A stretch of DNA of 64,000 nucleotides from Candidatus Woesearchaeota archaeon. Lineage in GTDB: Archaea; Nanobdellota; Nanobdellia; Woesearchaeales; UBA11576. Position 1 is the first letter of the stretch. Each line of letters begins with the position of its first letter. The position numbers and the translations under genes are program-made. The notes beneath the pieces are model-generated. The model had not been told where the DNA came from. It did no database searches and saw only the letters and a list, made by a program, of their open reading frames with translations. Positions 5,774-61,289 of this stretch are shown here, piece after piece. The stretch is taken from NCBI GenBank assembly GCA_018675335.1, contig JABGYH010000001.1:1-64000 (forward strand), written 5' to 3'.

Positions 5774-5846
5774 AGTCCCGTAGTGTAGTGGCCAATCATC
5801 CATGCCTTTGGAGCCTGGGACCGCGGTTCAAATCCGCGCGGGACTA
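5774..5846 (+). tRNA. tRNA-Gln(UUG)
   Basis: The 73-nt gene has a perfect 7-bp acceptor stem (AGTCCCG with CGGGACT) and discriminator A; CCA is not encoded. The T arm is CGCGG-TTCAAAT-CCGCG. The anticodon loop CTTTGGA gives UUG, and overall it resembles archaeal tRNA-Gln. There is no intron. The anticodon stem CATGC/GCCTG contains one T-C mismatch (29/41), which is unusual. A TATA-like box is seen about 30 nt upstream. Confidence 0.93.
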
Positions 5847-36092: not shown

Positions 36093-36269
36093 TACTTATT
36101 TAATCACCCTTAAAGAATATTTAAAGGTTTCTTATATAAATCAAATTTAACACACCCCAATTTCTGACTTAAAAACCACTAATCAATATAATAAACACAA
36201 AAATTTAAAAATACCTCTCAGTTTTTAACACTTAAATTTTCAGGTAAATAAATCCCTGAGGTGATATTA

Positions 36270-37706
36270 ATGAATAATAGTATGAACAATAACATAACTA
36301 ATATGAAAAGTACGTTACAAAAAGTAACAGATAATGAATGGATTTTACCAAAAACTTCTCGCGAAGGAATGCTCGTTGATGCAAAAATTTTTGGCAATCA
36401 ATTTATTGTAGATGGCCTTGAAGAAAATGCAATTAATCAATTAACCAATGTTGCAATGCTACCAGGAGTAGTAGGTCCAGTTTGTGCAATGCCTGATGCT
36501 CACGTAGGTTATGGACTCCCAATGGGTGCAATAGGTGCGTTTGATTCAGAAGAAGGAGTCATTAGTTGCGGGTGTACAGGATTTGACATTAATTGCGGAA
36601 TCAATCTTATTAGAACTAATCTAACCACTGACGAAGTTAAAGCAAAAATTCGACCTTTAATTGGAAAACTTTTTGAAAATGTTCCTTGCGGCGTTGGTAG
36701 CAAAGGACGACTAAGAGTTGCTCCAGAAAAATTCAATGATGTTCTTTTTGGCGGTGTCGATTGGTGTATCGAAAATGGATACGGCATTGATAAAGATAAA
36801 AAAAATACTGAAGAACTAGGAAGAATGAGCGGTGCTGATCCAACAAAAGTTAGCGATTTAGCATTAAAAAGAGGACGACCCCAGCTAGGAACTCTAGGAG
36901 CTGGAAATCATTTTTTAGAAATTCAACGAGTTGATCAAATTTTTAGTGATGAACATGCAAAAAAATATGGACTAGAAAAAGATAATGCCGCAATAATGTT
37001 ACATTGTGGAAGTAGAGGATTTGGTCATCAAGTAGCATCAGATTATTTAAAAATTCATGGAAAAGCTGCAGAAAAATATAACATTAAACTACCTGACAAA
37101 CAACTTGTTTGCGCACCAGTAAATTCTTCCGAAGGTCAAGATTATTTTAAAGCAATGCAATGCGCAGTTAATTATGCTTTTGCTAATCGTCTTGTTATGA
37201 CTCATTGGGTTCGTGAAACGTTTGAACAAATATTCAATAAAGATTGGGAAAGTATGGACATGCACACAGTTTATGCTCTAGCACATAACATTTGCAAATT
37301 AGAAGACCACACTGTTGATGGAAAAAAACGTAAATTGTATGTTCATAGAAAAGGAGCTACTAGAAGTTTCCCAAACACTCCTGTTTTAATCGCAGGAAGT
37401 ATGGGCACTGCATCATATGTTATGAGTGGAACTGAAGAATCAATGTTTAAATCATTTGGTTCAACTTGCCACGGTGCAGGAAGACTTATGTCAAGACATA
37501 AAGCAATTGATTCGTTTAAAGGTGAAGACATTAAAGCTAGTCTGTTAAAAAGAGGAATTGTTGCAAGATCTACAAGTCCAAAAGTTTTAGCTGAAGAAGC
37601 ACCTGATGCATACAAAGATATTGATCAAGTAATTGAATCAGTTCATAATGCAAATGTTTCAAGAAAAGTTGCAAGAATGACTCCTTTAGGCGTTGTTAAA
37701 GGATAA
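36270..37706 (+). CDS. rtcB: RNA-splicing ligase RtcB
   Basis: tRNA ligase that joins 2',3'-cyclic phosphate and 5'-OH ends, sealing exons after the splicing endonuclease removes archaeal tRNA introns. GAGGTGA precedes the ATG at 36270. Motifs: MPDAHVGYGLPMGAIGAF, CTGFDINCGI (metal-binding Asp and Cys), LGAGNHFLEIQ (His), HCGSRGFGHQ, GSMGTASYVMSG, and TCHGAGRLMSR with the guanylylated His. The length, 478, is normal. Three intron-containing tRNAs in this window are natural substrates. Confidence 0.97.
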   Translation: MNNSMNNNITNMKSTLQKVTDNEWILPKTSREGMLVDAKIFGNQFIVDGLEENAINQLTNVAMLPGVVGPVCAMPDAHVGYGLPMGAIGAFDSEEGVISCGCTGFDINCGINLIRTNLTTDEVKAKIRPLIGKLFENVPCGVGSKGRLRVAPEKFNDVLFGGVDWCIENGYGIDKDKKNTEELGRMSGADPTKVSDLALKRGRPQLGTLGAGNHFLEIQRVDQIFSDEHAKKYGLEKDNAAIMLHCGSRGFGHQVASDYLKIHGKAAEKYNIKLPDKQLVCAPVNSSEGQDYFKAMQCAVNYAFANRLVMTHWVRETFEQIFNKDWESMDMHTVYALAHNICKLEDHTVDGKKRKLYVHRKGATRSFPNTPVLIAGSMGTASYVMSGTEESMFKSFGSTCHGAGRLMSRHKAIDSFKGEDIKASLLKRGIVARSTSPKVLAEEAPDAYKDIDQVIESVHNANVSRKVARMTPLGVVKG

Positions 37707-45108: not shown

Positions 45109-45222
45109 GGCGGTAGTCGTATAACGGTTAGTATACAGGACTGTGGTAAACAAATAAATAAAAATTTTTGTAAATTTGTTTATAGATATCCTGAGACGCG
45201 AGTTCAATTCTCGCCTACCGCC
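45109..45222 (+). tRNA. tRNA-His(GUG) with intron
   Basis: Acceptor GCGGTAG/CTACCGC is complete, and the His-specific extra G at position -1 (45109) is encoded opposite C73 (45222). Anticodon stem CAGGA/TCCTG encloses CTGTGG-A, anticodon GUG. A 41-nt intron (45147-45187) splits positions 37 and 38; its ends pair (TAAACAAA with TTTGTTTA) as needed for the bulge-helix-bulge cut by the splicing endonuclease. T arm is GCGAG-TTCAATT-CTCGC. CCA is not encoded. The exons would be joined by RtcB, encoded at 36270. Confidence 0.93.
45147..45187 (+). other. Canonical 37/38 intron of tRNA-His
   Basis: 41 nt, almost only A and T, able to fold on itself by an 8-bp helix between its ends. Boundaries are set by restoring the loop CTGTGGA and the 5-bp anticodon stem. 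Confidence 0.85.
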
Positions 45223-58825: not shown

Positions 58826-59470
58826 TTAAAAATCACCCAGACTTTTTTGAGTTTTTTGTTCAATAATATTTTTATAACATTGCCAACTTTTTCTAAATAT
58901 TTCAGGACATTTATCATAATTTTGTTCTAAGAATAATTTGGTTTTAGGATCAGACGGATAACCACTGCCAAGATCCCCATAAATTTCTTTTAATTTTTCA
59001 ATTTCGTCGTCACGAGTAACTTTCGCAATTATTGACGCAGCTCCCGCAACCAAATATTTCAAATCAGCTTTATGTTCACAAACAACTTCACAATCAACAT
59101 TCAAATGCTCTTTAATATATTTTCTATAATCCGGAATATTAGTACTAGGACAATCAACAAATACTTTTTTAGGTGCTAGATTATTAATTATTTTTGCAGA
59201 ACTTAACGCTTCTAACCAATTAAGATTTAAATTAGGATCAGTCAATGCAAAATCAATTTCTTGAGGTGATGAAATAACTACATGATGAGAATATTTTGTA
59301 AGATGCTCAAACATTGCTTTTCTTTTTTTAGGAGATATTAATTTTGAATCAGTCACACCTAACTTTTCTAACTCAGACAAGTTTTTTTCTTCAATCATAA
59401 ATCCACAAACAACTAAAGGTCCAAGAAGAGGCCCTCTTCCAGCTTCATCAATACCACAAATCATTGCCAT
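58826..59470 (-). CDS. rnhB: Ribonuclease HII
   Basis: Cleaves RNA in RNA/DNA hybrids and single ribonucleotides in DNA. The metal-binding motif is ICGIDEAGRGPLLGPLVVCG (first Asp and Glu), followed by VTDSKLISPKKR, FVDCPSTN, DLKYLVAGAASIIAKVTRDDEIEKL (third and fourth acidic residues) and GSGYPSDP. The 214 residues fit archaeal RNase HII. The start could be either Met of MAMICG. Confidence 0.96.
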   Translation of the reverse strand: MAMICGIDEAGRGPLLGPLVVCGFMIEEKNLSELEKLGVTDSKLISPKKRKAMFEHLTKYSHHVVISSPQEIDFALTDPNLNLNWLEALSSAKIINNLAPKKVFVDCPSTNIPDYRKYIKEHLNVDCEVVCEHKADLKYLVAGAASIIAKVTRDDEIEKLKEIYGDLGSGYPSDPKTKLFLEQNYDKCPEIFRKSWQCYKNIIEQKTQKSLGDF

Positions 59471-59613
59471 TTTTCAAGAAAGATTTTTTGGGATTTATTA
59501 ATTTGTTGGAAACTGATTAAACAAATAAGAGTTTAATATAATAAGTTTAGAAAAAAATCAAATATGCTTAATAAACAAATAAGAAAAATAATAAAACATA
59601 GCGAGGGGTGGAC

Positions 59614-59656
59614 TTTCACAAATATTAATATGTGACAAATATTATCAATATTTAAT
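59614..59656 (-). other. T-loop intron (58/59) of initiator tRNA-Met
   Basis: 43 nt, nearly all A/T, with self-complementary AAATATT/AATATTT segments. Removing it restores a 7-nt T-loop TTCAAGT. It ends with GAAA before GT, exactly as the T-loop intron of the neighbouring tRNA-Ser does. Confidence 0.8.
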
Positions 59657-59677
59657 TTGAACCACCGACCTCCGGGT

Positions 59678-59696
59678 TTCTTTCGACAAAAGCCGA
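59678..59696 (-). other. Canonical 37/38 intron of initiator tRNA-Met
   Basis: 19 nt (TCGGCTTTTGTCGAAAGAA on the minus strand), among the shorter tRNA introns, inserted between A37 and A38; removal restores CTCATAA. Confidence 0.8.
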
Positions 59697-59735
59697 TATG
59701 AGCCCGACGGGCACTCCTGACTGCCCTACCTCGCT

Positions 59736-59911
59736 ATTTTACAGGAATAATCTTAAGGAAATAGTGCTGGTTTATAAAGCATATGGTTCAAGAAATAGTT
59801 CATTTATAAATAAAACTAATCGAAACAACACAGAACAAATCAAAACAAATCAATACTAAAGATCATTTTCAGAAATGTTTAAAAAGGACTTGTTTTTCTC
59901 ACTGTAGTTAT
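59736..59911. promoter_or_regulatory. Divergent promoter region of tRNA-iMet and tRNA-Ser
   Basis: Both tRNA genes read outward from this 176-bp stretch. TATA-like boxes are at 59877-59883 (TTAAAAA, for tRNA-Ser) and about 59771-59782 (TTTATAAA, for iMet on the minus strand, 36-47 nt upstream). Nothing else seen. Confidence 0.45.
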
Positions 59912-59950
59912 GCCGCGGTCGCATAGTCTGGCCATTGCGGAGGATTGCTA

Positions 59951-60010
59951 CAGCCTGTAGCCATAATACCTACAGTGGTCATCAACCATAAAGGGGTTGG
60001 ATCTGCAAAG
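59951..60010 (+). other. Canonical 37/38 intron of tRNA-Ser, 60 nt
   Basis: It contains an internal hairpin (CTGTAG 59955-59960 with CTACAG 59970-59975) and a second weaker stem (ATCAACC/GGTTGGAT). Its GC content is higher than that of the other introns. Confidence 0.8.
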
Positions 60011-60040
60011 ATCCTCTGTCCTCTGGACACGAGGGTTCGA

Positions 60041-60084
60041 AACAAATTTTTGCAAATTAACATTAACTGCAAGAATTTACGAAA
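60041..60084 (+). other. T-loop intron (58/59) of tRNA-Ser
   Basis: 44 nt. AAATTTTTGCA (60044-60054) pairs with TGCAAGAATTT (60068-60078) with one T-G pair, an 11-bp central helix suited to a bulge-helix-bulge. Boundaries are inferred by restoring TTCGAGT. Confidence 0.8.
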
Positions 60085-60206
60085 GTCCCTCCCGTGGCGT
60101 TTGCCAAACGGAAGCTTAAGAAATACTATGCTTTTTTAATGATTCCTAAGGCGTTTTTTCTTTTTTTATTATTTTATTAATTTCAATTAACTACAAAATC
60201 AAATAT

Positions 60207-61289
60207 TTAATTTTCTTGGTAAACTTCAACAAGATTTCGTTGCACAACAGAAGATAAATCATATAGCCCACAGGTTTTATGGTTTAATGATTCATACACT
60301 CCCGCAAACATAAGCGACTGCGTTAAAATAATATTTTCTGTTGGAACTGCAACTCTCGAACCATCAAAAGTTAAAGGAAAACCTGAATTTAGCAAATAAA
60401 TCCCCCCAATATGATAATCTTGATGAGGGTTGGACGTTTTTGGAAATTTAACTCTAAACTTCACAGAATCAAACTCCCTGTCAGAACTTGAAATACTTGC
60501 AAGCACAGTTCCCTCTCGCAAATAAGAATAGTCATTCATTCTCAAGCTCATATTTCCAGATGCACCTACAATTAAATCAAAATTACAAAGAAATTCATGC
60601 AAATCATTTTGATTAATAGTTCTTTTTTGTAGATCAGTATCAAAAATACAAGTTTCGAAATTTAATTGTTTTTGAACTTCCACACCTATTGGGCCCCCAC
60701 CCAAAATTAACGCACGTTGAGGCACCAAACCATACTTATCCAAATAAAAATTCAATTTATTTAAAAAACAATCAACTATATGAGGAGTTTCCATAATAAG
60801 TTTTGTTTTAGATCTTGCCACATTAACTATAGGAAACGAAACATTATTTTTAATTATTGAATACCCCGAACTTGTTTGCTCCACTCCAGATAAGTTTTCA
60901 CAAAAATAATTTGAAGCGACACTAAGAAGTGCACCCCCATCATCAATCACAACAACATGTTTATCTTTAAGATTTGCTTTATTTTTTACCAATTGAATAA
61001 ATTGCAATATATGCTTAGAAAATTGATCATCAAAACTTAAGTGACTATTAAATTCATATGAATAAACTGATACACCTAACGCACTTAAATCTCGTTGCAC
61101 AGAGTTATTAAACGAATAACTTTTACCAATAAGATATGTATTTTCTGGCAATAACCCGCAACTAAATAACTGACTAAACAACAAGTACTGCCCTTCTAAA
61201 AAATGTTGGCAACCAACTATAATCACATCTTCAAGAGATCGATCATATAATTCGCCAACAACGCCAAACAAAGAGTTTTTATTCATCAC
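60207..61289 (-). CDS. SAHH-like NAD-binding protein
   Basis: The 360-residue protein resembles S-adenosylhomocysteine hydrolase-like proteins: VVVIDDGGALLSVASNYF, GVEQTSSGYSIIKNN, NVARSKTKLIMETPHIVDCFLNK, then a Rossmann nucleotide-binding loop RALILGGGPIGVEV and IFDTDLQKRTI, and FDLIVGASGNMSL. Lengths and several SAHH catalytic positions differ from genuine SAHH (about 430 residues), so it may act on another substrate or be a paralogue without hydrolase activity. It is divergent from the Lrp gene. Confidence 0.6.
   Translation of the reverse strand: MMNKNSLFGVVGELYDRSLEDVIIVGCQHFLEGQYLLFSQLFSCGLLPENTYLIGKSYSFNNSVQRDLSALGVSVYSYEFNSHLSFDDQFSKHILQFIQLVKNKANLKDKHVVVIDDGGALLSVASNYFCENLSGVEQTSSGYSIIKNNVSFPIVNVARSKTKLIMETPHIVDCFLNKLNFYLDKYGLVPQRALILGGGPIGVEVQKQLNFETCIFDTDLQKRTINQNDLHEFLCNFDLIVGASGNMSLRMNDYSYLREGTVLASISSSDREFDSVKFRVKFPKTSNPHQDYHIGGIYLLNSGFPLTFDGSRVAVPTENIILTQSLMFAGVYESLNHKTCGLYDLSSVVQRNLVEVYQEN

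Follow-up and report, generated by a model that had tools for sequence, protein, structure and literature searches.

Introns at positions 37/38 and 59/60 in divergent initiator tRNA-Met and tRNA-Ser(GCU) genes of an intron-rich archaeal genome

Results

The initiator tRNA-Met and tRNA-Ser(GCU) genes each carry two introns

We wanted to establish whether two divergent tRNA genes that neither ARAGORN nor Rfam detects are functional, where in the T-loop their second introns are inserted, and which enzyme could remove them. The genes lie in the window, that is, the whole stretch of 64,000 nucleotides analyzed here. A sequence-only reading had proposed a divergent initiator tRNA-Met(CAU) and tRNA-Ser(GCU) pair at 59599-60099, both genes with introns in the anticodon loop and the T-loop, and the structures and folds described below agree with that proposal. 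The two genes stand back to back on opposite strands with their 5' ends 176 bases apart (positions 59200-60500 were read). The initiator gene (59599..59735, minus strand) gives a precursor of 137 nt and a mature tRNA of 75 nt; the corresponding lengths for the tRNA-Ser(GCU) gene (59912..60099, plus strand) are 188 and 84 nt. TATA-like sequences precede both genes and, as read from the sequence, are possible promoter elements: TTTATAAA on the minus strand (59771..59778) lies 36-43 nt ahead of the 5' end of iMet, and TTTAAAAAGG on the plus strand (59878..59887) lies 25-34 nt ahead of that of Ser.

In the initiator gene, intron 1 (59678..59696, minus strand, 19 nt) lies at 37/38 between a 5-bp outer (anticodon) helix and a 4-bp inner helix, and intron 2 (59613..59655, minus strand, 43 nt) lies in the T-loop at 59/60, with 4/4 central and 5/5 outer (T-stem) pairs. 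In tRNA-Ser(GCU), intron 1 (59951..60010, plus strand, 60 nt) lies at 37/38 with 4/4 central pairs, and intron 2 (60042..60085, plus strand, 44 nt) at 59/60 with 4/4 central and 5/5 outer pairs. The 37/38 introns first read from the sequence are real in both genes, and a 4-bp central helix between 3-nt bulges is present in both T-loop introns and in the Ser 37/38 intron; the iMet 37/38 intron, with just 2/4 central pairs, has a relaxed BHB motif.

Once the BHB introns are removed, the acceptor, anticodon, and T stems are complete in both cloverleaves. Excision of 19 nt and 43 nt leaves a well-formed archaeal initiator with the anticodon loop CUCAUAA and the T-loop UUCAAAU (mature sequence AGCGAGGTAGGGCAGTCAGGAGTGCCCGTCGGGCTCATAACCCGGAGGTCGGTGGTTCAAATCCACCCCTCGCTA, 66.6 bits with model R1); this mature sequence was assembled manually, as the weak 37/38 motif fell outside the thresholds of the solver. 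Excision of 60 nt and 44 nt from the Ser precursor leaves a class II tRNA with a 14-nt variable arm and the T-loop UUCGAAU. The mature cloverleaf scores of the two genes, 31.2 and 30.7, fall in the range of the intron-free tRNAs of the genome. Both precursors fold far more stably than dinucleotide shuffles (z of -4.1 and -4.8, with 0/200 shuffles equaling the real precursors), and the minimum-energy folds contain the T-stem and intron hairpin in both cases, with the exact hBHBh' shape for Ser.

The T-loop introns lie at 59/60

Because several registers restore a 7-nt T-loop, a register test was needed, in which each candidate junction was scored by the BHB rule (a 4-bp central helix, two 3-nt bulges, and outer and inner helices). 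The test drew on all the tRNA genes in which a structural search of the genome for further T-loop introns had found one, 15 in all. In the 59/60 register these genes have on average 3.6/4 central, 5/5 outer, and 4.1/5 inner pairs, with the central helix fully paired over 4 bp and the 3-nt bulges in register in 9/15 and a 5-bp outer helix in 15/15. In the 58/59 register, by contrast, the outer helix is broken and the central pairs fall to 1.3/4; the remaining registers average 0.7-2.2 central pairs. The introns commonly end in (Y)GAAAG/U (the slash marks the junction), mainly because their 3' strand pairs with the T-loop: GAA pairs with the invariant U54-U55-C56, and the preceding base pairs with R57. 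The shared end recognized earlier (GAAA/GT) therefore stands in the form GAAAG/U, but the loop thought to be remade, TTCRAGT, is in fact UUCAAAU or UUCGAAU. R57 covaries with its intron partner in the genome (G57:C in 8, A57:U in 5, and mismatches in 2); at 25 other loci, including one on an Aenigmatarchaeota contig, G57 faces C in 11, U in 2, and A in 1, and A57 faces U in 6, G in 5, and C in 0, although preselection of these introns for ≥3/4 central pairs, together with the A57-G cases, limits the weight of this pairing.

Two other ways of reading the locus can be weighed against these results. The original placement of the T-loop junctions at 58/59, which would leave UUCRAGU loops, also restores a 7-nt T-loop, but the loss of central pairs and of the outer helix in that register makes it scarcely credible. 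It is also very improbable that the two loci are pseudogenes in decay, disrupted by insertions, with the intact tRNAs sited elsewhere. That standard tRNA finders overlook both genes would fit such decay; however, every stem is intact after excision, the same intron position and motif occur in 15 genes of the genome, and relatives have such introns too (see below). Further, a check for intron-free copies of iMet or Ser(GCU) found none, nor any second copy of either, in the draft assembly; as this is 97% complete and in 9 contigs, there is a small chance that a further copy, or a second endonuclease subunit, lies in the missing part. We conclude that the junctions are at 59/60 and that the two genes are very probably intact.

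tRNA introns are widespread in the genome

To place the two genes in context, the 1.706-Mb draft (9 contigs) was searched for combinations of acceptor, D-arm, and T-arm with up to three BHB introns. This revealed 35 tRNA genes, covering all 20 amino acids and the initiator, of which Rfam detects 18. At a mature cloverleaf score of ≥28, the structural search found 33 genes in the real genome, and a closely similar search at the same score found 0, 0, and 1 genes in one reversed and two Markov-shuffled genomes. T-arm BHB hairpins alone did little better than chance as a genome-wide count (73 compared with 58-62 in Markov sequence), which makes the context of acceptor and D-arm indispensable. Two ARAGORN calls (C5:42260 and C9:154908) form no tRNA.

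Introns interrupt 28/35 tRNA genes and total 49, with one in 12 genes, two in 11, and three in 5. They lie at 37/38 (24, or 25 with Thr-CGU, whose intron was placed there), 59/60 (15), the D-loop (6; weak outer helices make these junctions less certain than the others), 30/31 (2), and, for the rest, neighboring anticodon-loop sites; the Cys intron is at 36/37 or 37/38. The genes with three introns encode tRNA-Lys (C3:73815-74010), tRNA-Arg-CCU (C1:170569-170786, minus strand), tRNA-Arg-UCU (C7:351405-351613), tRNA-Leu-UAG (C7:82242-82498), and elongator tRNA-Met (C9:131133-131332). Within the window, tRNA-His(GUG) (45110..45222, plus strand) has a 41-nt 37/38 intron of the ordinary kind, and tRNA-Gln(UUG) (5774..5846, plus strand) provides an intron-free contrast. 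A few introns besides that of iMet, in Val-UAC, Leu-UAA, and Lys, likewise have just 2/4 central pairs. The intron sequences are hardly alike between genes, with a clear likeness only between two Leu T-loop introns, and no recent transposition of introns was seen inside the genome. The supposition that T-loop introns are rare and mark out two special genes thus does not hold here: 15/35 tRNA genes have one, and the habit extends to the genome and the order.

The census also turned up two further tRNAs of note. A tRNA-Ile gene with the anticodon UAU and two introns is located outside the window (C7:103980-104143, plus strand), and no tRNA-Ile(CAU) was found in the draft genome. NCBIfam TIGR03280, which we take to be the TiaS family, was detected in 4 archaeal controls but in none of 20 genomes examined from the order, which suggests that AUA may be read by the UAU tRNA in the host. 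A tRNA-Thr gene with the anticodon AGU (A34), atypical for archaea, is located outside the window (C1:86937-87009, plus strand), close to a Thr(GGU) gene.

T-loop introns recur across the order

The host order, probably Woesearchaeales, comprises at least 86 families in the genome collection and has small genomes. With the genome analyzed here set aside, the named records that neighbor its RNase HII come mostly from Woesearchaeota. Between 9 and 43 tRNAs per genome are visible to Rfam across 39 genomes of the order, a spread that fits hidden intron-rich tRNA genes. We searched relatives with a covariance model that includes the T-loop intron (R1) and scanned the loci found for introns; as the model also matches ordinary tRNAs, its per-genome counts are not counts of T-loop introns, and solved loci only are counted here. 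These contain 24 distinct 59/60 introns (≥3/4 central pairs and a full T-stem; the Aenigmatarchaeota locus excluded), which were found independently in many families. In one closed genome (G019; a 788-kb stretch, partly masked), 5/11 tRNA genes found have a 59/60 intron. The iMet gene could be solved in 29 cases in the order; a 59/60 intron is present in G035, G074, and G075, ~9 of the genes have a 37/38 intron, and ~13 have none; in related genera, the central helix of the iMet 37/38 intron is mostly weak too (2-3/4). The initiator T-loop intron is, then, recurrent yet sporadic in the order. When 371 genomes of the phylum were scanned with the pattern GTTCGAA...CGAAAGTC, the result was too noisy for any conclusion: by a hand count, ~69/200 genomes of the order matched, compared with ~50 in the reversed control, and 11/~171 in the rest of the class, compared with 17 in the reversed control. 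Separately, the Aenigmatarchaeota contig JAPLVB010000041.1 (locus L202), from a different DPANN lineage, carries a CAU-anticodon tRNA with a T-loop intron at 59/60.

A single endonuclease gene without an extra loop is detected

The genome encodes both an endonuclease and the RtcB ligase, as BHB splicing requires. The RtcB gene noted at the outset is indeed present in the window (36261..37706, plus strand; Pfam PF01139, 532.7 bits, E 1e-159), and an archease gene is located at C1:153072-. Examination of the endonuclease type, which the sequence-only reading had called for, revealed one alpha-type gene, EndA (C7:320846-, 176 aa), with PF02778 and PF01974 as its N- and C-terminal domains. EndA aligns with Methanocaldococcus jannaschii EndA (PDB 1A79), an alpha4 enzyme, over nearly its whole length with a one-residue gap and is collinear with it, so that the extra loop (CSL or ASL) that alpha4 enzymes lack is not present. 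The predicted active-site Tyr-to-His stretch has a constant length in 30 relatives (L142-L171), in which it is nearly fixed across the order as YDRG[VI]KPGEDHA with an invariant lysine. EndA is thus, as in alpha4 enzymes, a single short chain with both domains; neither a second structural subunit nor a fused three-unit chain, as in (alpha-beta)2 or epsilon2 enzymes, was found in the genome.

This enzyme has to be reconciled with the introns. According to reviews, the motifs cut by alpha4 and alpha2 enzymes are canonical BHBs, and the enzymes that accompany diverse introns are (alpha-beta)2 or epsilon2, mostly with a special loop (PMC4033280, PMC6379350, PMC12397907, PMC4090602). M. jannaschii alpha4 is listed as narrow in specificity (PMC6379350), whereas EndA here, although likewise the product of one gene, of similar length and without an inserted loop, must serve far more introns, some of them relaxed. 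The T-loop introns could be cut by an alpha4 enzyme: it had been argued that the endonuclease must accept non-canonical sites, but it is the position that is non-canonical, and the motifs are mostly strict. Motifs with 2/4 central pairs are not expected to be cut well by a narrow-specificity alpha4 enzyme, and the iMet 37/38 intron, weak in relatives too, is harder to square with alpha4 cutting; the Archaeoglobus fulgidus enzyme, however, is able to excise relaxed 37/38 introns from full-length pre-tRNA (PMC6379350). Alternatively, the introns are real but the cutter is a broad-specificity enzyme with a second (beta) subunit that has diverged beyond detection, as is the case in Nanoarchaeum equitans. 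The relaxed iMet motif, the published association between diverse introns and (alpha-beta)2 or epsilon2 enzymes (PMC4090602, PMC6379350, PMC12397907), and the fact that the N. equitans catalytic subunit is the best PDB match of EndA all favor such an enzyme. EndA lacks the six residues inserted ahead of the histidine in that subunit. However, each of the 39 genomes searched has exactly one gene with PF01974, the genome itself has no second Pfam match at E≤10 and none that is credible by phmmer or an order-specific HMM, and EndA retains both domains and its near full-length alignment to the alpha4 enzyme. We therefore regard a hidden beta subunit as unlikely and favor the single-gene EndA as the cutter.

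Discussion

We consider it highly probable that both genes are functional, single-copy, essential tRNA genes with two BHB introns each, cut by a one-gene EndA and joined by RtcB and archease. In the precursors, once transcribed, the 3' end of the T-loop intron would pair with U54-R57, with the T-stem stacked below, forming an hBHBh' motif in the T-arm. EndA, probably a homotetramer of the 176-aa chain, would cut both bulges at 37/38 and at 59/60, and RtcB, with the help of archease, would ligate the exons.

The two genes belong to a known class, as the literature already describes introns at 59/60, tRNAs with several introns, and an initiator processed both at 59/60 and at 37/38. Position 59/60 is a listed non-canonical intron position in Crenarchaeota/Thermoproteales and Nanoarchaeum (PMC4090602), and multi-intron tRNAs are already known in Crenarchaeota, Nanoarchaeum, ARMAN, and Asgard archaea. 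The genome resembles those of Crenarchaeota/Thermoproteales and Nanoarchaeum in having BHB introns at 59/60 and in the D-loop alongside 37/38 introns, with up to three per gene (PMC4090602), and its load of 1.4 introns per gene is near that of P. calidifontis (71 in 46 genes, PMC8450103). It differs in its lineage, probably Woesearchaeales (DPANN), in its single loop-less EndA gene and, from Thermoproteales, in that its introns hardly share sequence, whereas transposition is reported there. Asgard Atabeyarchaeia/Freyarchaeia, which belong to another phylum, similarly have introns in most tRNA genes, often non-canonical and multiple (PMC11291895). A T-loop intron in the initiator had been called striking; it is indeed present in the sole iMet gene found, but the strikingness is weakened by the initiators of Thermofilum pendens, permuted at 59/60 with a 37/38 intron, and N. 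equitans, split at 37/38 (PMC3218864). As in the T. pendens iMet/Tyr system, the initiator would be BHB-processed at 59/60 and has a canonical 37/38 intron (PMC3218864), but its gene is in normal order with a 43-nt intron inserted rather than circularly permuted. None of the open-licence papers searched was found to describe tRNA introns in Woesearchaeota.

The less expected part is a heavy intron load together with a single loop-less EndA across the order, the intron trait being a property of the genome and of much of its order, probably Woesearchaeales. We lean, by a modest degree, toward the view that the whole of this DPANN order manages Thermoproteales-like intron loads with an alpha4-type EndA that is encoded by one gene and has no extra loop, with diversity arising through mostly strict BHB motifs moved to new positions, the enzyme not being relaxed. 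The system allows a direct test of whether a broad-specificity endonuclease is, as the rule has it, required for diverse tRNA introns, and, if a single alpha4-type EndA does serve the order, intron diversity would no longer go hand in hand with (alpha-beta)2 or epsilon2 enzymes, as is accepted at present. Intron-hidden tRNAs are a possible reason why many genomes of the order appear short of tRNAs, and, if this is so, half or more of the tRNA genes in many genomes would escape standard annotation. Finally, as the one initiator tRNA that was found carries a T-loop intron, correct splicing at 59/60 would be a prerequisite for translation initiation in the host.
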